Of a stretch of DNA of 64,000 nt, positions 12,381 to 29,875 are shown one piece after another. The DNA is from Cryomorphaceae bacterium (GTDB lineage: Bacteria > Bacteroidota > Bacteroidia > Flavobacteriales > ECT2AJA-044). The notes beneath the pieces were generated by a model. The model did no database searches and was not told the DNA's origin. It saw only the letters and a list, made by a program, of their open reading frames with translations. Each line of letters begins with the position of its first letter. Position 1 is the first letter of the stretch. Both the position numbers and the translations under genes were made by a program. The stretch covers positions 1,798,001 to 1,862,000 of the forward strand of contig CP059070.1 in NCBI GenBank assembly GCA_017798125.1, read 5' to 3'.

Positions 12381-13229
12381 CTATCGATTGTTGACTTCGA
12401 CGTCTTCAACCAGCCAAAATTCACCATCTCGGAACTCGATCGCGTCATAGCTAAAATCTGGGATGTAGAAGGCGTACATCCCAGGTTGGGCACCTTCTTT
12501 AGGAACCAAATGGTCAAAGACGTACATCCCTAACTTTCGATTCCACCGGAAACTCACGCCCGCATCTTCACCATACTCTAAGATGAATCGCGTTCTCGGG
12601 TTGCTGTCCACGTGGATGATGGGTTTTCCGAATCGCGGCCGATCCGCAATATCGAAGGTCAGAATTTCGAAAATCTTCATGTTGGAGAAGGGATCCTTTC
12701 CATTCCACCCCAGCAAGGTGTACAGGACTTCGCCTTTGTACCGCTCCTTGCGAATTTCGTAGTACAGGCAGCCAAACCAATTGTCCGCATCTCCAAGGGC
12801 AAAATCTCGATTTTCCATGCCCTGATGGTTGTCGAAAAGCTCGACGACGCGGAATTCCTCTTCACCGGGGATTTGAATAAAGCCATAGAACTCATGAAGC
12901 CCGTTCTCCAAAGGAAGCATCCAGGTGTAGATGCGGAACTTTTCATCCGGAGCCATGAGTTTGGAAACCGTGGTCAATCGATCGAAGCGGTAGCGGAAAC
13001 TCTCCTTTTGCTTCAACATTTCGCGAAAGCCTGCACGCATCACTTCGTTGTGGTAGCGCTTGAGGGAATCGGACCGGCCGTTCAATACGACTTGGCCCAT
13101 CATGCCGAGCTCATCTTCCCATAGATCCATGGTGGTCTTTTCGATACCGTAGGTGCGGACCGTGTCTTCGGACTGAGCTATCGCGCCGTAGGCGCAGAGG
13201 AGGAGAAGAAAGGCGAGGAGCTTGTTCAT
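12381..13229 (-). CDS. Secreted protein of unknown function
   Basis: A 282-residue protein with a signal peptide (MNKLLAFLLLLCAYGAIAQ, cleavage after AIA). The mature protein is charged, with no repeats, membrane segments or metal motifs that I recognise; a run near residue 100 (FRIYTWMLPLENGLHEFYGF) and the region FILEYGEDAGVSFRWNRKLGMYVFDHL look like a beta-rich soluble domain. There is no T9SS-type C-terminal domain. It probably acts in the periplasm. It follows the ferredoxin gene on the same strand, but a terminator separates them. No promoter box was recognised. Confidence 0.7.
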   Translation of the reverse strand: MNKLLAFLLLLCAYGAIAQSEDTVRTYGIEKTTMDLWEDELGMMGQVVLNGRSDSLKRYHNEVMRAGFREMLKQKESFRYRFDRLTTVSKLMAPDEKFRIYTWMLPLENGLHEFYGFIQIPGEEEFRVVELFDNHQGMENRDFALGDADNWFGCLYYEIRKERYKGEVLYTLLGWNGKDPFSNMKIFEILTFDIADRPRFGKPIIHVDSNPRTRFILEYGEDAGVSFRWNRKLGMYVFDHLVPKEGAQPGMYAFYIPDFSYDAIEFRDGEFWLVEDVEVNNR

Positions 13230-22010: not shown

Positions 22011-23516
22011 ATGCGGAACCTCTACACGCTCTTGATTTTTAGTCTGGCCTTCAGTGCCACAAAGGCTCAGGATAACAATTACTGGTTTCAAACTTTTGGA
22101 GCTCCGGCCTCCGCGTTGGGTGGAAACGTCATTGCAGGTGTACGCGATAACAGCGCTGCATTCTACAATCCAGGAGCACTGGGCTTTATTGAGGATCCTG
22201 ATATTTCGGTGTCCGGAAATGTCTACGGCTACCGGTATTTTGACTTAGAAAATGGATTGGGCGAGGGTACCGACGTATTTACGGGTGGCTATTTGCTCTA
22301 TCCACAAATGCTATCGAGTGTTTTTCGAGTAGGCAAGGATAACCCTTGGCACATCAATTTCAACTGGCTAACCCGGAATCATGCGTTCAAGATCATGAAT
22401 GAGCGCTATGAGCAGGATTATGACGTTATCTCGGTTCTAGAGGGAGATGAACGGTACGTAGGTTCCTTGGATTATTTTCAAGACCTAAGTGAGCAATGGG
22501 TTGGTATCGGAGCCGGTAGGCCGCTGAATGAATATTGGTCCGTGGGTTTTTCTGTATTCGGGACTTACCGGTGGCAGCTGAACCGTTTCGAATCTACATT
22601 GGAGACTTATCCACAAGACAATTTTGTCGAATTGCCCGATGGTACGGTTACGCCTTGGTATGTGGCCAGTCAAGGCGCATTGCAACGCGTTCAATTCGAG
22701 AATTTTCAGCTCATTGCAAAGGGTGGTGTGGCCTTTGAAAAAGGACCGTGGAAGCTGGGCCTGACGGCGACTGCTCCCAGCATAAACCTGAATGTGCGTT
22801 TGATTGAACTAGGTTATATCACGCGTGTGCAACGGCAGCAAAACTTAGGGGTGCCGTATGACCTGAGCTATGTATTTGAGAACGCCTTATTCGATTTTCA
22901 GATCAGTGACAAGCAGAAAAGGCTACCCACCAACCATAAAAAGCCGCTATCTTTTGGTTTCGGAGCAGAGTATGCTTTCCCACGAACGCGTGTCATGTTC
23001 AGTTGTGAGTATTTCTTTGCCATAGAGACTTATGCCGTGATTCGCGGTGCTCAGCGCGACGATCTAATTAACCCGCCCTTCCTTCAGGAATTCTTGGAGC
23101 GCCCGAACTACATGACCATTTACGAACAGAACAAGGCCGTGTTTAACTGGGGAATTGGCCTCGAGCATGAGCTTGAAAACGGTTGGCTGATCAGCGGAGG
23201 CTTCCGAACAGATGGACATTACCATGAGGACGACACTTCCGAGGAGTGGGAGGGAGCTATGGACCTTCTTCCGCTTGAAATCGACTTCCTCCATTTTAAT
23301 GCCGGTGTTGCTGTTCCCACGGAATCGGGACGTTTTACCCTGGCCTTTCACCATGCACGGGGTAGAACCGAAGAACGCGAGCCTATTATCAACATGATTG
23401 ATCCTATTGACTACAATGAGGAAACCGGTGAGATCTTGCGCGGAACCGTGCCTACGGAGACCAATCTAACCCATTTCCAGATCAACATGATTGTGGGATA
23501 TACGCATTTGTTCTGA
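22011..23516 (+). CDS. FadL/OmpP1-like outer-membrane protein, first of tandem pair
   Basis: A 501-residue exported barrel (signal peptide MRNLYTLLIFSLAFSATKAQ). The mature N-terminus (ASALGGNVIAGVRDNSAAFYNPGALGF) carries the N-P-A/G-like motif of FadL/OmpP1 proteins, and the rest has barrel strands ending in NMIVGYTHLF. Such proteins usually pass hydrophobic molecules across the outer membrane. It overlaps the following paralogue by one base (TGATG). Predicted leaderless mRNA. Confidence 0.75.
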   Translation: MRNLYTLLIFSLAFSATKAQDNNYWFQTFGAPASALGGNVIAGVRDNSAAFYNPGALGFIEDPDISVSGNVYGYRYFDLENGLGEGTDVFTGGYLLYPQMLSSVFRVGKDNPWHINFNWLTRNHAFKIMNERYEQDYDVISVLEGDERYVGSLDYFQDLSEQWVGIGAGRPLNEYWSVGFSVFGTYRWQLNRFESTLETYPQDNFVELPDGTVTPWYVASQGALQRVQFENFQLIAKGGVAFEKGPWKLGLTATAPSINLNVRLIELGYITRVQRQQNLGVPYDLSYVFENALFDFQISDKQKRLPTNHKKPLSFGFGAEYAFPRTRVMFSCEYFFAIETYAVIRGAQRDDLINPPFLQEFLERPNYMTIYEQNKAVFNWGIGLEHELENGWLISGGFRTDGHYHEDDTSEEWEGAMDLLPLEIDFLHFNAGVAVPTESGRFTLAFHHARGRTEEREPIINMIDPIDYNEETGEILRGTVPTETNLTHFQINMIVGYTHLF

Positions 23517-25051
23517 TGAATCGAGCCAGGTGCATACTCTTGATCTTGACCGCGTTTTGGGCCCTACAGCTACGTGCACAAGACAACCACTATTGGTATC
23601 AGACTTTCGGAGCTCATAATGGAGCTCTTGGAGGCAATGTAGTCGCTGGAGTGCGGGACAACAGCGCCTTGTACTATAATCCTGGAGCAATTGGTTTTAA
23701 CTCCCTAGCCAACTTATCCATTGGAGGAACGGTTTACGGGTACAACCACACAAGTTTGAATGATGCCCTAGGGGAAGGGATTGGACTATCATCGAATTCC
23801 TTACTCACATTTCCGCAACTCGTGGCAGGAACTGTGGGTTTCAATAAAGAGGAAGAAGAAAACCCATGGAGACTCACCTTTGGTTTACTTACTCGCCAGT
23901 ATTCATCGAAACGTTTTGATCAAGCCTACACGGAGGTTGGGCCTGATATAATCGCGGCTATTCCTGGAGAAGAACGCTTTACAGGCTCGTTGTTTTACGA
24001 GAATAATTTATTCGAATATTGGATTGGCCTAGGTATGGGTCGGAAGCTCGGAAAGCACCATGCTATTGGAGCATCTTTATTCGGAACCATAAGGTCACAG
24101 AAAAGTCGATTTGAGGTCACTCGAAGGGCTGACTTTCCGGAGACCGAGAATATAACCTTACCGGACGGGAATACGGTGCCTTACTACTGGACTGAAATTC
24201 GCTCATTGCAGGGATATTCCATTCAGACGACAAGTCTTATTCTGAAGCTGGGCTGGGCATATGAAAAGGAGGATTGGAAGTTAGGAGCCACAGTTACCAT
24301 CCCGAGCCTCCCCATTCGATTGACTTCACTGGGAATTGGCGCTGCGAATGTAGTACGTGATCAAAGTCAATTGAATTTAGGAATTCCTTATGACCCTTCA
24401 TTCGTACAAGAATTCCTGCTCGGGGATTTGACTGTTTATAACAAGGAAATCAAAGTTCCGGCCACTTACTTAAACCCAACGTCGATTTCATTTGGAGTAC
24501 AACGGGACTTTCCCAATTCACGGATCATGTTTTCAGCGGAGTACTTTCTTCCCATAAACCGCTATACGGTTGTGGATGCACAGTCCCAAAACAGTATTGT
24601 GAATCCTCCGAATTACTTTCTAGGCATCAACGAGGATAATTATGCCGACGTAGCAGAGCAGCATCGTCAAGTGTTAAACGTAGGGGTTGGCTATGAGTAC
24701 AACTGGGACAGTAGTTTTTATCTTCACGCTGGGTTTCGTACAGATTTTAGTTACTCTGTAGATCAAAGCGAATACTTCAACAGTGCGGAACTCAGCTTGA
24801 CGAGTTTGCCACTAAACTTCTATCATGTTTCACTAGGGGGAACATTTGCACGGCCAAGAGGCTATTTGACCTTAGCGCTGGATCAAGCTTTTGCCGGTAA
24901 AAAAGAAATAGAATCTTTAGTGAACTTCAGAAATCCGGTGGATTTTGATCCGCAGTCAAATACCAGACTTGAAGGTGTCGAAAGTGCTTCGGGTAGCGCA
25001 TTTGTCTATCAAGTCACCCTTATTGTCGGGTACACCTTGGTCTTCTTTTAA
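23516..25051 (+). CDS. FadL/OmpP1-like outer-membrane protein, second of tandem pair
   Basis: A 511-residue paralogue of the preceding gene, sharing HYWYQTFGAHNGALGGNVVAGVRDNSALYYNPG with the other copy's N-terminus, and the same length and C-terminal strand (QVTLIVGYTLVFF). Signal peptide MNRARCILLILTAFWALQLRAQ. It is translationally coupled to the first copy and its 3' end overlaps the convergent fatty-acid-hydroxylase gene by four bases. The two are old duplicates, with clear similarity at the ends and lower similarity in the middle. Substrate unknown. Confidence 0.75.
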   Translation: MNRARCILLILTAFWALQLRAQDNHYWYQTFGAHNGALGGNVVAGVRDNSALYYNPGAIGFNSLANLSIGGTVYGYNHTSLNDALGEGIGLSSNSLLTFPQLVAGTVGFNKEEEENPWRLTFGLLTRQYSSKRFDQAYTEVGPDIIAAIPGEERFTGSLFYENNLFEYWIGLGMGRKLGKHHAIGASLFGTIRSQKSRFEVTRRADFPETENITLPDGNTVPYYWTEIRSLQGYSIQTTSLILKLGWAYEKEDWKLGATVTIPSLPIRLTSLGIGAANVVRDQSQLNLGIPYDPSFVQEFLLGDLTVYNKEIKVPATYLNPTSISFGVQRDFPNSRIMFSAEYFLPINRYTVVDAQSQNSIVNPPNYFLGINEDNYADVAEQHRQVLNVGVGYEYNWDSSFYLHAGFRTDFSYSVDQSEYFNSAELSLTSLPLNFYHVSLGGTFARPRGYLTLALDQAFAGKKEIESLVNFRNPVDFDPQSNTRLEGVESASGSAFVYQVTLIVGYTLVFF

Positions 25052-25962
25052 GCGTCTTCTTCCTTTTTACCTTCCCAACGAGTTAAGTTCCATCCGTAGG
25101 CAATTTGACCCCAGAACCCCTTTGGAAATTTTTCAACCCCTGGGAATCCAATCTTGATGTGGGCATCATCTTTAGGAATGTCCGCCGTGCCGAAAATGTA
25201 ATCCCATACGCTCAGCGAAATTCCGTAGTTCAAGCCGTACTTGCGGCCGTTTGGCATATTGTATACGTGATGCCACAAGTGCATGACGGGATTATTGATG
25301 AGGTACTTTAAAGGGCCATAGGTCAAGTGGATGTTTGCGTGATTCAGGTGTCCGATGGCGATGGCAATGTAGAATACGATGAAGGCCTGTTCAGGGTAGA
25401 AGTTTCCAATGAGCATGACCATGATGTACTTCATGGGAGTGTAGAAAACATTCTCCATCCAATGGTACCGCAAGTGGGCGGCAAATCCCATTTCTTCAAC
25501 ACTGTGGTGGACCTTGTGGAAACGCCACAAAAAAGGAATCCGGTGAAGAAGGACGTGTGTGAACCATTGAATGAAATCGGTCGCTACAAAGAAAACAAGC
25601 AGTTGTATCCATGCAGGGTATTTCTGCATGTCAACAATGATCAGTTTATTTTCCCATCCTGAGCCAAATACATCGTTGACCAGCATATACGTCCACTCTG
25701 AAAACGCCATGAAGATGACGATCTTGAAGATGTAGAAATTGAAAAACATGTAGAAAGCATCGAGCCAGAAGTCTTTGCGTACTCGGGCTTGCCCTTTTCT
25801 CCATGGGAATGCAATCTCCAATCCCCAAACAGCCAAAGAAAGGACGACCAACCACCAAAAGTAATTCACGTACCAAGGGTCAACTTGAAAGGTGATTTCT
25901 CTCCAAGTATAGCCAGCGAAGTTGGTTGTGGCTTGCCAAAAGGCTTCTAAATAGCGCTCCAT
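25048..25962 (-). CDS. Sterol desaturase / fatty acid hydroxylase superfamily protein
   Basis: A 304-residue membrane protein with several hydrophobic segments and the di-iron histidine clusters of the superfamily: HVLLHRIPFLWRFHKVHHS near residue 135, HLNHANIHLTYG in the middle and HLWHHVYNMPNGRKYGLNYG toward the C-terminus. It would hydroxylate or desaturate a lipid. It is the last gene of the sulfite-oxidation operon, 11 bases after the rhodanese stop. Its substrate cannot be read from the sequence. Confidence 0.87.
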   Translation of the reverse strand: MERYLEAFWQATTNFAGYTWREITFQVDPWYVNYFWWLVVLSLAVWGLEIAFPWRKGQARVRKDFWLDAFYMFFNFYIFKIVIFMAFSEWTYMLVNDVFGSGWENKLIIVDMQKYPAWIQLLVFFVATDFIQWFTHVLLHRIPFLWRFHKVHHSVEEMGFAAHLRYHWMENVFYTPMKYIMVMLIGNFYPEQAFIVFYIAIAIGHLNHANIHLTYGPLKYLINNPVMHLWHHVYNMPNGRKYGLNYGISLSVWDYIFGTADIPKDDAHIKIGFPGVEKFPKGFWGQIAYGWNLTRWEGKKEEDA

Positions 25963-25973
25963 GATAATCTCAA

Positions 25974-26933
25974 TTAAGATGTCTCTTCATCTGCGACGGC
26001 CTCGATAGGAAGTTCTTCGAAGAAGCTCCACTCCGTCCAACTGCCATCGTAGTTGCGGACATTTCGGTATCCTAACAATTCTCGTAAAACAAAGGTTGTA
26101 TGGGCCGATCGAACTCCACTGTGGCAGTAGACAATGATCGGCGTGTCAGCATGCAGTCCACGCGATTGATAGAGTTCTTCAATGGCTTCTAACGTATAGA
26201 ACTCTTGGGTCACGCGATAATCAAAGGTCAGGCAATAGTCGACCCAAAGTGCTCCGGGTATATGTCCTGCCCTGAATGCGCCCAACTTCTGGTTTCGGCC
26301 CTCAAACTCATCTTGAGACCTCGTGTCTAATATGACTATTGCACTGTCGGCTAAGGCGGCTTCAACATCTGACCGTTGAGCGTGCCAATCGGCCCGTGAG
26401 GGCCCTTCTAAAACAAACTCCGACGGCGCCTTATGAATGGGCTCCGTGCTAAGCGGACGATTACTTCTTTGCCAAGCCGCTAGTCCGCCATCGAACATGT
26501 AGGCATCATCGTATCCGTAGTACTTCAAAATCCACCAAAGGCGTGCCGCGTCTACTAGACCTTTGGCATCGTATATCAAGATTTTTTGTCCAGTCGAAAT
26601 CCCTAGTTCGGAGAAGAGCTGCTCAATCTGCTCACGAGTGGCGCACATGCCTGAATAGGGAAGATCGTGTCGTTGGATATCGTCGCGCCAAACTTGAAGT
26701 GCTCCGGGTAGATGGCCCTCGGCAAATTCATGTGGTCGCCGTAGGTCGATGACTGCCCATGAGGAGTCGGATAAGGCGTTCTCCACCTCTTCAAGGCTCA
26801 GAAGAGAAGGAGAGCTGACTTTTTCGTTCACAACCACGACCTCTTGTTGCTCTCCGGTAGGGCGGTTGCAGGCCATGGACATCGAGAGGGTTGCTCCCAA
26901 CAAGACAATACTTATAATTCGAGCATGTACCAT
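25974..26933 (-). CDS. Rhodanese-type sulfurtransferase lipoprotein, two domains
   Basis: A 319-residue lipoprotein (MVHARIISIVLLGATLSMSMACNRP, lipobox SMAC). Two rhodanese domains follow. The first (about residues 50-160) has ILIYDAKGLVDAARLWW where the active loop should be and no cysteine. The second has the active loop IVYCHSGVRSAHT with the catalytic cysteine near residue 270. It therefore probably transfers sulfane sulfur in the periplasm or at the outer membrane. It overlaps the upstream cytochrome by 22 bases. It carries a hairpin motif copy read P-S-R-A-D. Confidence 0.85.
   Translation of the reverse strand: MVHARIISIVLLGATLSMSMACNRPTGEQQEVVVVNEKVSSPSLLSLEEVENALSDSSWAVIDLRRPHEFAEGHLPGALQVWRDDIQRHDLPYSGMCATREQIEQLFSELGISTGQKILIYDAKGLVDAARLWWILKYYGYDDAYMFDGGLAAWQRSNRPLSTEPIHKAPSEFVLEGPSRADWHAQRSDVEAALADSAIVILDTRSQDEFEGRNQKLGAFRAGHIPGALWVDYCLTFDYRVTQEFYTLEAIEELYQSRGLHADTPIIVYCHSGVRSAHTTFVLRELLGYRNVRNYDGSWTEWSFFEELPIEAVADEETS
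26388..26405 (-). repeat. Hairpin motif copy in rhodanese gene
   Basis: Reverse strand GGGCCCTCACGGGCCGAT, sense to the gene, with a TCAC spacer. Confidence 0.65.
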
Positions 26934-27400
26934 TCTTCGATGTCTAAGTTTTTTCGGCGGCCAAAGTCCTTGGGCGCATAATACTCGGCCAAGTAGTCCA
27001 GTATTTTGTCTTCATTAGGCCCCAGGTCCCAGAGTTTCTGGGTTTCCTGCATCCAAACGATCGTCTTTTTCCAGTTTTCTCGGCTCATTCGATTTTGTGT
27101 GATCAACTTGGCGCTGTGACAAGCCGTGCAACTGGCCCGGACGATCTCAAATCGCTCGTCGTATACGAGACCCGTGGCGACATGGATGCCTTCTTCAATT
27201 TTTTCCACGGCATCGGTTGATTCTTCGAAGGTGGCCACTTCGGCTTGGGCGGGAAAGTACTGATCCAGCGAAAAGGACTGTGGCCGGGTCAATTGGATAG
27301 CTGTAATGACCCCCAGAACCCCAACCAGAAGAACCAGGCGGGTTAAATTCTGCAGAATGCGCAGTAATTCGGGTTTCTTTGATGGCTCCTTAAAACTCAC
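26912..27400 (-). CDS. Membrane-anchored monohaem cytochrome c
   Basis: A 162-residue protein with one membrane helix at about residues 19-37 (NLTRLVLLVGVLGVITAIQL) and a single haem motif CTACH near residue 91. The following QNRMSRENWKKTIVWMQ resembles the haem-distal helix of sulfite-dehydrogenase cytochromes. It starts two bases after the stop of the molybdenum enzyme, so it is the natural electron acceptor for it. The protein lies in the inner membrane with the haem outside. The family call rests on the haem motif plus context. Confidence 0.82.
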   Translation of the reverse strand: MSFKEPSKKPELLRILQNLTRLVLLVGVLGVITAIQLTRPQSFSLDQYFPAQAEVATFEESTDAVEKIEEGIHVATGLVYDERFEIVRASCTACHSAKLITQNRMSRENWKKTIVWMQETQKLWDLGPNEDKILDYLAEYYAPKDFGRRKNLDIEEWYMLEL

Positions 27401-27402
27401 CT

Positions 27403-28722
27403 TTAGATGACTTTAATGGCAATTCGATGCGTGGCGTTATTCAAATAGCCCTTGGGATTCCAGCCAGGTGTAATCATTGGTTGGGACTCACCGGCATCAT
27501 CCGTGGCCTTAGCCCAGACTTCGTAGTATCCTTTTTGAGGGAATTTCACAGTGGCGGTCCAGTGCTGCCAGGCCAAGCGATTTACGGCGGGTTCGAGCTC
27601 GGCATCTTGCCACGTGGCACCGAAGTCGATGCTGAATTGCATCCGCTTTACTGCTCGCTCTCCGGCCCATGCATGACCCCGAATGTCGAGCGTCTTGCCC
27701 AATTCCATCATTCCCCCAGACTTTGGATAGGTGATCAGTGATTTTACCGGCATCGAGTGAATGATGCACATATCTTCAGGCTTTACTTCCTCTCCGGGGG
27801 CAACCGGCTCGCAAGGCACTCGATAGCTGGGCGCTTCCATCTTGGCGCCATCGTGCACGCGATCACGTACCAAGATTTTGGTCAGCCATTTTCCCGAGAC
27901 ACTTGCCGGCCAACCACCCAATACCAAGCGCAGAGGATATCCATTGTGCTTAGGAATGTCCTGACCATTCATCTGGAAGGCTATCAAACTTTCTTCCTGA
28001 AGGGCTTTTTCGATGGGTACACCTCGGGAGATGACCACTTTATCAGGGTCTCCGCTAAGGTGAATATCTGCACCTTCATAGCCGATGTAGACCGCTTTGT
28101 CGGTGATTCCTACATCTTCTAATAAGTCTTTTAACCGAATTCCAGTCCAAGACGGACAGCCTACGCCACCCGTAGTCCATTGATTTCCTTTGGCGGGAGG
28201 ATTGAATTCTGCACGGCCATTTCCCCCGCACTCTAGGGTCAGCTGGTAGGTATACTGCTTGAAATTCTCTTTGAGCTCACGTAGTGTGTAGGTCTTGGTT
28301 CCATTAACCGCTTCTCCTTCAATAGTGAGCGTCCAGGATTGGAGGTCAAAGGAAGCGGGTAGTAAACCGTTGTTTCGCACAAACATTTTATCTGCCGGGG
28401 TCACACGATCATCAAGGAGGTGAGCGGGCGTCTCAATGTTCCAGGGCTTATCGTTCAGTACTTTCAGTTCCCTTGATTTCCCGTCCAGTTCAAATGGGTC
28501 ATCGCTGTCCGCGAGCAAGGCTGGAATCAATTTGGCCGGAAAGTTTGCACCAAAGACCATGTTCGCACCCAAAACGGCGCCTAAGGTCCCTAGTGCACTC
28601 TTAGTCAAGAACCCTCTTCGCGTAACGGCAGGTGCATCCTTTCCCCAAAGGATCTCGGCCGCGCGTTCAGGATCTTCGGCATAAAGCTCGTGTATTCCCT
28701 TTGGACTGTGCGATTCGTTCAT
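27403..28722 (-). CDS. Sulfite oxidase-family molybdopterin enzyme
   Basis: A 439-residue protein with a twin-arginine signal (VTRRGFLTKSALGTLGA, RR at 35-36), so it is exported folded. The molybdenum-ligand cysteine is in TLECGGNGRAEFNPPA near residue 165. The sulfite-oxidase signatures WTGIRLKDLL, GYPLRLVLGGWPASVSGKWLT and HSMPVKSLITYP are all present, followed by the dimerisation domain. It resembles SorA/SoxC-type enzymes without a haem domain, and would oxidise sulfite to sulfate and pass electrons to the adjacent cytochrome. A weak box TACCTTGG (28745-28752) may be its promoter. Confidence 0.88.
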   Translation of the reverse strand: MNESHSPKGIHELYAEDPERAAEILWGKDAPAVTRRGFLTKSALGTLGAVLGANMVFGANFPAKLIPALLADSDDPFELDGKSRELKVLNDKPWNIETPAHLLDDRVTPADKMFVRNNGLLPASFDLQSWTLTIEGEAVNGTKTYTLRELKENFKQYTYQLTLECGGNGRAEFNPPAKGNQWTTGGVGCPSWTGIRLKDLLEDVGITDKAVYIGYEGADIHLSGDPDKVVISRGVPIEKALQEESLIAFQMNGQDIPKHNGYPLRLVLGGWPASVSGKWLTKILVRDRVHDGAKMEAPSYRVPCEPVAPGEEVKPEDMCIIHSMPVKSLITYPKSGGMMELGKTLDIRGHAWAGERAVKRMQFSIDFGATWQDAELEPAVNRLAWQHWTATVKFPQKGYYEVWAKATDDAGESQPMITPGWNPKGYLNNATHRIAIKVI

Positions 28723-28852
28723 AGCGGATAACTGTAGGTTACTTCCAAGGTACGGCGAATTTAGAGGAAGAACCGGACCTGGTCAGTGATTCCCGTCACT
28801 AAGCACTAAAGCAAAGCCGACTTCGTTTGTGAACTATAACTATCTTGCGCCC

Positions 28853-29875
28853 ATGAAGCGATCGCTCCTTTGGATCCTCTTGTTTACGGCCTTTATAAGT
28901 TCGGCCCAGCCTGGCGGACGACACAGCTATGAGTTCTTGACTTTGGTGATGTCACCGCGTGTTGCGGCTATGGGAGGAGAGCTTTTGGCGATTCCCGACG
29001 GCGATATCAATGTTGGTTTGTGGAACCCCAGCGTACTGAACGACGAATCTACGGGGCAGCTCTCCATGAACTACGTCAATTACTTCGACGACATCAACTA
29101 TGGTCAGGCAGCCTACGGCCGTAAGATTGAGCACGGATACCTGAGCTTTGGGGCGCGCTACGTCAACTACGGCACATTCGTTGAAACTGACGAATTCGGG
29201 AACATCATTGGGGAGTTTACCGGGTCCGATGTGGCCCTGACAGGAGGATACGGTCGTTGGTTAGATTCGTCTTGGTCGGTCGGCGCCAACTTTAAGCTCA
29301 TTGGTTCTGCCTTGGCCAACTACGGCAGCATTGGATTTGCAACGGACTATGCCATTACATGGCACGCCAAAGAATCCAACTTAAACGCCAGCCTTGTTGT
29401 TGCCAACGTAGGTACACAAATTGCCACCTATACCCGTTCTCCCCGCGAGCCGCTGCCTTTCGAGATCAAAATGGCCCTAAGTGGTAAGCCCGAACATGCA
29501 CCGATTCGTTGGCACATTACAGCCGAACATCTGGAACAGCTCGATTTGACCTTCGAGGACCCGAATGCCCCGAACACAGACCCATTAACGGGTGAGCCTA
29601 TTGATAATTCGAATTCTCTGGGCAAAAAAATCATCAGCCATTTTGTCCTTGGAGCGGAGCTGTTCCCGGGAAACAGCTTCAATCTGAGAGCGGGGTACAA
29701 TTTTAGACGTTCACAGGAAATGTCCTTAGCCACGCGCCGTTCCGGTGCGGGTTTCTCCTGGGGTTTTGGGCTTCGGCTGCGAAGCTTTCGAATCGACTAT
29801 GCCATGGCCACCTATCACGTCAGCGGCGCCTCGCACCATTTTGGCATCAGCACAGACCTGAATAAACTATTCTAA
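28853..29875 (+). CDS. porQ: Type IX secretion system protein PorQ
   Basis: A 340-residue barrel with signal peptide MKRSLLWILLFTAFISSAQ. The segment PGGRHSYEFLTLVMSPRVAAMGGELLAIPDGDINVGLWNPSVL is the PorQ hallmark, and the protein ends in ISTDLNKLF. PorQ is an outer-membrane accessory protein of the T9SS, which would export the sorting-domain protein encoded at 14809. It precedes cmk by three bases, the order usual in flavobacteria. An upstream in-frame start at 28829 (GTG) is less likely. Confidence 0.9.
   Translation: MKRSLLWILLFTAFISSAQPGGRHSYEFLTLVMSPRVAAMGGELLAIPDGDINVGLWNPSVLNDESTGQLSMNYVNYFDDINYGQAAYGRKIEHGYLSFGARYVNYGTFVETDEFGNIIGEFTGSDVALTGGYGRWLDSSWSVGANFKLIGSALANYGSIGFATDYAITWHAKESNLNASLVVANVGTQIATYTRSPREPLPFEIKMALSGKPEHAPIRWHITAEHLEQLDLTFEDPNAPNTDPLTGEPIDNSNSLGKKIISHFVLGAELFPGNSFNLRAGYNFRRSQEMSLATRRSGAGFSWGFGLRLRSFRIDYAMATYHVSGASHHFGISTDLNKLF

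Follow-up and report, generated by a model that had tools for sequence, protein, structure and literature searches.

What does a predicted membrane oxygenase do in an operon for sulfite oxidation? The question is raised by a stretch of 64,000 nucleotides from a Cryomorphaceae bacterium (contig CP059070.1, positions 1,798,001 to 1,862,000; hereafter the window), in which the genes for a sulfite dehydrogenase (SDH) and a c-type cytochrome are followed on the minus strand by those for a rhodanese lipoprotein and a membrane protein of the FA_hydroxylase superfamily (FAH). The sulfite-oxidation core is known chemistry; to our knowledge, the helpers accompanying the flavobacterial sulfite step are little described. 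We found that FAH recurs beside SDH and also, at loci without an adjacent SDH, beside other sulfur genes, a tie overlooked in an earlier, sequence-only reading of the window. On balance, we favor the view that the operon probably forms the periplasmic sulfite arm of aerobic sulfide or sulfane-sulfur oxidation together with a co-regulated FAH, most likely a lipid hydroxylase. The unit and the palindrome preceding it are as follows.

28785..28800, minus strand: palindrome AGTGA-N6-TCACT, 62 bp before the SDH start; possible operator of the Crp/Fnr type
27403..28722, minus strand: SDH, Tat-type sulfite dehydrogenase of the sulfite oxidase family, 439 aa (PF00174 and PF03404)
26912..27400, minus strand: membrane-anchored mono-haem c-type cytochrome, 162 aa, GTG start (CXXCH, M117)
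25974..26933, minus strand: two-domain rhodanese lipoprotein, 319 aa (PF00581 in two stretches)
25048..25962, minus strand: FAH, membrane FA_hydroxylase-superfamily protein, predicted di-iron oxygenase, 304 aa (PF04116)

The list of open reading frames (ORFs) bears out the tight packing described earlier: SDH and cytochrome genes are separated by 2 bases, cytochrome and rhodanese genes overlap by 22, and rhodanese and FAH genes are separated by 11. The four genes are presumably co-transcribed.

Recurrence with sulfite dehydrogenase

With a threshold of E 1e-60, and counting the source genome each time, SDH relatives turned up in 7 of the 246 genomes searched from the order, in 14 of the 395 sampled from the phylum and in one of the two from the family. 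We compared 16 other SDH loci (L-numbers below; G-numbers denote genomes), two of them from added Flavobacteriales metagenome-assembled genome contigs and two supplied by a single genome, G569. The SDH–cytochrome pair was found at all 16. FAH adjoins at eight of them and in two gene orders, lying downstream of the SDH unit at L016, L026, L027, L028, L029 and L032 and upstream of SDH, overlapping it, at L035 and L038; the rhodanese gene adjoins at four (L016, L017, L027 and L032). All four genes stand in the window order at L016, L027 and L032, and because the order recurs at these 3 of 16 loci, it is more than chance. The neighborhood survey proposed with the sequence-only reading thus places the set in more than one genome. 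That reading had treated the last two genes alike, as less usual additions to the pair; the description stands in part, FAH being the more constant of the two and the rhodanese the less.

Two further genomes, G101 and G166, contain both the SDH–cytochrome pair and FAH at separate places, and the surroundings of FAH are the same there as at L026, where the pair adjoins it. At L028, genes for SQR, DsrC-like protein, DsrE2, SDH, cytochrome, FAH, rhodanese, a persulfide dioxygenase (PDO)-like protein and Crp lie within 10 kb, and L029 too has sulfur genes close to its SDH–FAH unit. SDH relatives were also present on 33 plasmid records. Five of these plasmids were examined (those of Vibrio, Spirosoma, Pontibacter sp. 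G13, Paracoccus and Leisingera): all have a small gene, a candidate for the cytochrome, after SDH, and in the 5–6 kb flanks none carries an annotated FAH.

FAH at loci without an adjacent SDH

Across the 395 phylum genomes, 50 contain a relative of FAH at E 1e-54 or better, comprising 10 of the 14 genomes with SDH vs. 40 of 381 others and 16 of the 59 genomes with SQR vs. 34 of 336 others, neither comparison being corrected for relatedness. The density of rhodanese matches gave a weak within-locus control (11 matches in 233 kb near FAH vs. 5 in 302 kb farther away, P 0.037; P 0.15 after removal of the arsenosugar-type loci described below), and we therefore fetched 40 control stretches. The cases were 38 loci from 37 of the 42 genomes with FAH (E ≤1e-54) and no adjacent SDH, the set being without G275, G362, G395, G462 and G484 and without loci L117 and L118. 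The controls came from 30 of the 37 case genomes, ten of them used twice, as the other seven had short contigs only. With a gene for SQR, PDO, YeeE, TSUP or rhodanese counted as a sulfur marker, 11 of the 38 FAH loci had a marker within 3 kb vs. none of the 40 controls (Fisher P 1.5e-4); within the whole 15 kb, the numbers were 13 of 38 and 0 of 40. Among the 11 marker-positive loci, seven have just a rhodanese-type or PDO-like match, three belong to an arsenosugar-type operon, and a set of three is closely related.

Searched on its own, FAH matched two Bacteroidota plasmids, and both are sulfur linked: that of Pontibacter akesuensis carries genes for MBL, rhodanese, YeeE, DUF6691, MFS, a hypothetical protein, DoxX, TlpA, DsrE and FAH, and that of Haliscomenobacter hydrossis for MBL+rhodanese, MFS and FAH. 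A third plasmid match, in Sphingobium at 30% identity, had no sulfur link. In a tree of 48 FAH proteins, the clade of the window protein comprises 11 rows (support 100/100), and the 19 rows labeled sulfur linked need at least nine state changes, so the link appears to have been gained or lost repeatedly. For the trees, ORFs shorter than 230 aa (the broken copy in L115) were left out, L100 and L103 were included through tblastn coordinates, and a second tree was built without L118; L094, L104 and L107, with a rhodanese gene within 3 kb, were labeled arsenosugar type and not sulfur linked. We consider it quite likely that FAH is functionally tied to a setting of sulfide or sulfane-sulfur oxidation.

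Some FAH loci deserve a description of their own. At L116 (5536–12875), genes for a PDO-like protein, FAH, an NrfD/4Fe-4S fusion and a 962-aa molybdopterin oxidoreductase stand in a row; the last scores below every NCBIfam cut-off, and its substrate might be sulfite, polysulfide or thiosulfate. In L115 (G137), a stop codon interrupts FAH, which looks like a decaying gene, and at our thresholds neither SDH nor SQR was matched in this genome. Six loci (L091, L094, L095, L096, L104 and L107) hold FAH in what looks like an arsenosugar-type operon with, by eye, genes for an ArsM-like methyltransferase, DUF2064-like and DUF547-like proteins and a glycosyltransferase; three of them have a single-domain rhodanese within 3 kb.

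Sulfur genes and operator-like sites

The source genome, a single contig of 2,844,510 bases, contains a sulfur island ∼165 kb from the operon, with genes for Crp/Fnr, SulP, a small ORF, a PDO-like protein, YeeE, DUF6691/YeeE, a second PDO-like protein and an SQR-like protein. The PDO-like proteins have the domain make-up MBL+rhodanese; a cysteine dioxygenase gene lies beside the island, and three single-domain rhodanese genes lie together elsewhere in the genome. The SQR-like protein of the island (L120) scores 219 of 525 bits, a cut-off set for the selenoprotein subtype, and one of the MBL+rhodanese proteins 56 of 625 bits against the Blh model, the domain make-up fitting in both cases; the SQR of L028 passes the NCBIfam cut-off (650 vs. 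525 bits). The presence of SQR-like, two PDO-like and YeeE-type genes makes sulfide or sulfane sulfur the probable source of the sulfite, which agrees with the earlier proposal that the operon oxidizes sulfite or thiosulfate-derived sulfur. A place for the operon in sulfide or sulfane-sulfur oxidation is likely.

The palindrome AGTGA-N6-TCACT upstream of SDH is the single match in the 64-kb window (0.02 expected). Similar sites precede the SulP, PDO-like, YeeE and rhodanese genes of the source genome; the exact AGTGA-N6-TCACT form was absent from the upstream regions of the other scanned SDH loci. The SDH upstream regions of L027 and L028 yielded another box, GTAACN4GTTAC, which has 12 matches in 839 kb of sulfur and FAH loci (0.8 expected from base composition) vs. 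none in 600 kb of control loci (0.6 expected); without the two loci from which it was derived, 7 of the 12 matches remain, one of them intragenic (L108, inside FAH). Ten of the 12 lie upstream of SDH, SQR, PDO-like, TSUP-FAH, FAH or YeeE genes. The box stands 65, 55 and 46 bp before SDH at L027, L028 and L029, a second L027 match being 260 bp before SDH and 52 bp before a divergent gene, and 118 and 54 bp before SQR at L028 and L080, the L080 site being also 81 bp before FAH. It further occurs 45 bp before the PDO-like gene of L080, 55 bp before the TSUP-FAH operon of L086, 44 bp before the lone FAH of L109 and 49 bp before the YeeE gene of the own-genome island, and an L028 match at 12776 falls at the 5′ end of a PDO-like ORF with an uncertain start. 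Less strict forms were not clearly enriched: GTAAN6TTAC has 24 matches in the 839 kb vs. 9 in the controls, and the form allowing A/G and C/T has 23 vs. 13. For GTRACN4RTYAC, 5 of 27 places are upstream of sulfur genes, a count biased by the pattern having been picked after the own-genome sites were known.

We searched the full 16-base box, TGTAACN4GTTACA, in seven genomes against a reversed control. It has six places in G078 and seven in G108 (none in the reversed control) and one each in G094, G240 and G344 (reversed controls 2, 0 and 1). Judged by eye, the genes that follow it encode, among others, a rhodanese and a molybdenum enzyme resembling polysulfide reductase. In all, it looks like a candidate Crp/Fnr-type respiratory or redox box that is not confined to sulfur genes. 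Two of its sites have other neighbors, again by eye: in G344 (L208, 1384–1567), it lies between divergent thioredoxin-like and fatty-acid-desaturase-like genes, the latter a second possible membrane-lipid gene near the box, and in G240 (L212, 1060–1449), it precedes a gene for a small protein reading like DUF302.

The four proteins

The four products fit the names given in the sequence-only reading: a predicted Tat-exported sulfite dehydrogenase, a membrane cytochrome c, a two-domain rhodanese lipoprotein with one active cysteine and a putative enzyme of the fatty-acid-hydroxylase fold. SDH has the Pfam domains Oxidored_molyb and Mo-co_dimer (160.5 and 73 bits, both above the gathering score) and, by eye, a twin arginine in RRGFL. 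Its residues R116, C165, R170 and Y300 are invariant in all 17 aligned sequences; their counterparts in SorA we take to be R55, C104, R109 and Y236, and His57 to be the position at which SDH has Asn. In the alignment with SorA and its point-mutant PDB entries, R116 and Y300 correspond to the residues changed in 2ca3 and 2c9x, C165 to the molybdenum-ligand Cys and the Asn to the His changed in 2ca4. The cytochrome has one CTACH (CXXCH) motif and an N-terminal hydrophobic stretch, both by eye, and a single sub-threshold haem-binding match in Pfam (20.5 of 25.2 bits). CXXCH and M117 are invariant in 16 of 16 aligned sequences (alignment A3, without the L033 copy); by eye, the anchor seems variable among relatives, being a transmembrane helix, a lipobox or a plain signal peptide. 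Active-site residues like those of SorA and the constant pairing of the two genes are consistent with the earlier assignment to sulfite oxidation with a cytochrome, and the pair very likely oxidizes sulfite.

In the rhodanese, the lipobox Cys22, recognized by eye, and the domain 2 residue C270 are invariant in all five aligned orthologues. The loop cysteine (CHSGVR) is found in domain 2 only, with Asp122 at that place in domain 1; at position 127, domain 1 of the window protein also has Val in place of a Cys common to the four other aligned orthologues.

FAH matches PF04116 with 91.3 bits (cut-off 31), and its histidine clusters HX3H, HX2HH and HX2HH, which presumably bind two irons, are invariant in the 41-row alignment A1. 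In an AlphaFold2 model (mean pLDDT 86.2), the positively charged loop R55–K63 and the histidine clusters are apparently on the same side of the helices, judged from the helix list and hydropathy peaks, and by the positive-inside rule the active site would face the cytoplasm. FAH was also considered as an electron partner of SDH; this is thought unlikely because its site would be cytoplasmic, whereas SDH, cytochrome and rhodanese would be exported. That its substrate is a lipid is an even guess, and a sulfur or organosulfur substrate is very doubtful.

As for the neighbors of the operon, the 3′ end of FAH overlaps a convergent gene (23516–25051) by 4 bases, and the divergent gene upstream (28829–29875) encodes the type IX secretion protein PorQ. 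Window positions 22011–25051 hold two tandem genes, convergent to the operon, with products weakly PorV/PorQ-like.

Proposed mechanism and alternatives

In the mechanism that we favor, SQR would turn sulfide into persulfide or polysulfide, from which the persulfide dioxygenases would make sulfite in the cytoplasm. Sulfite leaving the cell or arising outside it would be oxidized by the exported molybdenum SDH, with the electrons passing through the membrane-anchored cytochrome c to the respiratory chain. On the outer side of the inner membrane, the rhodanese lipoprotein would shuttle sulfane sulfur among persulfide, sulfite and thiosulfate. FAH, as a cytoplasm-facing membrane oxygenase, would most likely hydroxylate a membrane lipid on exposure to sulfide or sulfite.

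FAH could instead take a direct part in sulfur oxidation, oxygenating membrane-dissolved polysulfane or S8, or a sulfonate or organosulfur lipid, and giving sulfite to SDH. Its recurrent partners indeed make or use sulfite (SDH, the PDO-like proteins and a TauE-type exporter), sulfur genes adjoin it in several separate branches of the tree, and the L116 array combines it with a PDO-like protein, NrfD/FeS and a molybdenum oxidoreductase. However, FAH is also found in arsenosugar-type operons and alone, the alignment showed nothing marking a sulfur substrate, and we know of no characterized member of the superfamily that oxidizes inorganic sulfur; we regard the direct role as improbable. The bolder claim that FAH is a core co-regulated sulfur oxygenase of Bacteroidota, oxygenating membrane sulfur or a sulfur lipid at the cytoplasmic face and feeding SDH-type enzymes, we hold to be very improbable; if true, sulfur oxygenation by FAH would represent a new kind of sulfur oxygenase. 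A neighbor without a functional link, traveling with mobile sulfur islands, would explain the FAH-bearing islands on plasmids and the 27 of 38 FAH loci without a sulfur marker within 3 kb, the latter also a point against our own reading. Such hitchhiking is difficult to reconcile with the two gene orders with SDH, the marker-free control loci, the retention of FAH in G101 and G166, where the SDH–cytochrome pair is elsewhere, and the box upstream of the lone FAH in L109, and we consider it unlikely. The sequence-only reading had speculated about a lipid change, for example in sulfonolipids, and FAH modifying these would link sulfite to sulfonolipid metabolism. SulA has an orthologue in the source genome (7u7h as its best match in the PDB, E 2e-174) with an AKSLP segment, the one that contains the SulA lysine in our reading of PMC9304779. 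Counted at E 1e-120, SulA is present in 139 of the 395 phylum genomes, in 14 of 14 with SDH and in 30 of 50 with FAH. It is nearly universal in the sampled class, with FAH or without, and since just seven genomes of that class are without it, its presence in all SDH genomes does not discriminate. At the same threshold, 20 of the 50 FAH genomes had no SulA, including G339 and G559 (L098 and L100), which have a rhodanese gene near FAH, and these 20 speak against an obligatory connection. The case for a link to sulfonolipids is weak, and as a requirement it does not hold; a role of FAH in modifying sulfonolipids seems highly unlikely.

Several further observations weigh against a sulfur-linked, co-regulated FAH. 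Half of the other SDH loci (8 of 16) have no adjacent FAH, 4 of the 14 SDH genomes gave no FAH match at E 1e-25, and SDH is absent from the single same-genus genome searched. The counts are inflated by relatedness, and 6 of 7 rows of one FAH branch lie in an arsenosugar-type operon. The names PDO and SQR rest on domain make-up, the own-genome copies scoring below the NCBIfam cut-offs. Among the regulatory sites, the source genome has more matches to the reversed control than to the pattern itself, the 16-base box does not exceed its control in G094 and G344 and was not found in G200 and G132 (two of the seven genomes searched), and, by eye, it also precedes nitrate reductase, other respiratory reductases and unrelated genes.

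The recurrence of FAH with SDH, PDO-like, SQR and sulfur-transport genes, together with the operator-like box common to FAH and these genes in some genomes, suggests a step in sulfur oxidation, or an adaptation of the membrane to it, that has yet to be described. Among the open-access PubMed Central (PMC) papers listed in our searches, the recurrent FAH partner appears undescribed: among the matches listed for sulfur terms, hydroxylase or desaturase occurred solely in one parasite review. Flavobacteria are named among marine thiosulfate oxidizers in PMC12345210, and the words "desaturase" and "hydroxylase" are absent from its main text.

Comparison with known systems

Like SorAB of Starkeya novella (2blf), SDH and its cytochrome join a molybdenum enzyme of this family to a c-type cytochrome encoded by the next gene downstream, and the active-site Arg, Cys, Arg and Tyr of SorA are matched by invariant SDH residues. 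By profile, SorA is the best PDB match of SDH (E 2.7e-60), ahead of chicken sulfite oxidase, which scores marginally above SorA in the single-sequence comparison. The differences are that SDH reaches 242 of the 600 bits set for SorA (and 192 of 570 for SorT and 177 of 420 for SoxC) and its cytochrome, a weak match, 26.5 of 93 for SorB, that Asn replaces SorA His57, and that in the window the cytochrome is membrane anchored and rhodanese and FAH genes lie downstream. As it misses the SorA, SorT and SoxC equivalog cut-offs by a wide margin, we regard SDH as a further branch of the sulfite oxidase family that presumably works like SorA.

The rhodanese shares with the 3-mercaptopyruvate and thiosulfate sulfurtransferases (SseA, rhodanese) the two domains and the active cysteine in the second, and differs in its score against SseA (NF008557; 132.7 bits, cut-off 250), its lipoprotein signal and its CHSGVR loop. 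The genome as a whole is similar to the SQR–PDO–rhodanese sulfide oxidation of heterotrophs, as described in PMC12345210, in having SQR-like, two PDO-like, YeeE/YedE-like, SulP, rhodanese and SDH genes, while these genes lie in at least three separate places. FAH is akin to the ornithine lipid hydroxylase OlsE and to Scs7p in matching PF04116 and the OlsE model, in its histidine clusters and in having Scs7p as the best solved-structure match of its model. It stays below the OlsE cut-off (NF052566; 87.2 of 475 bits), and the Scs7p match is distant (Z 5.8, rmsd 4.9, 172 residues aligned), Foldseek giving no match at E ≤0.001 and a Scs7p-like one at E 7.7; in contrast to both, FAH in the window stands among sulfur genes.

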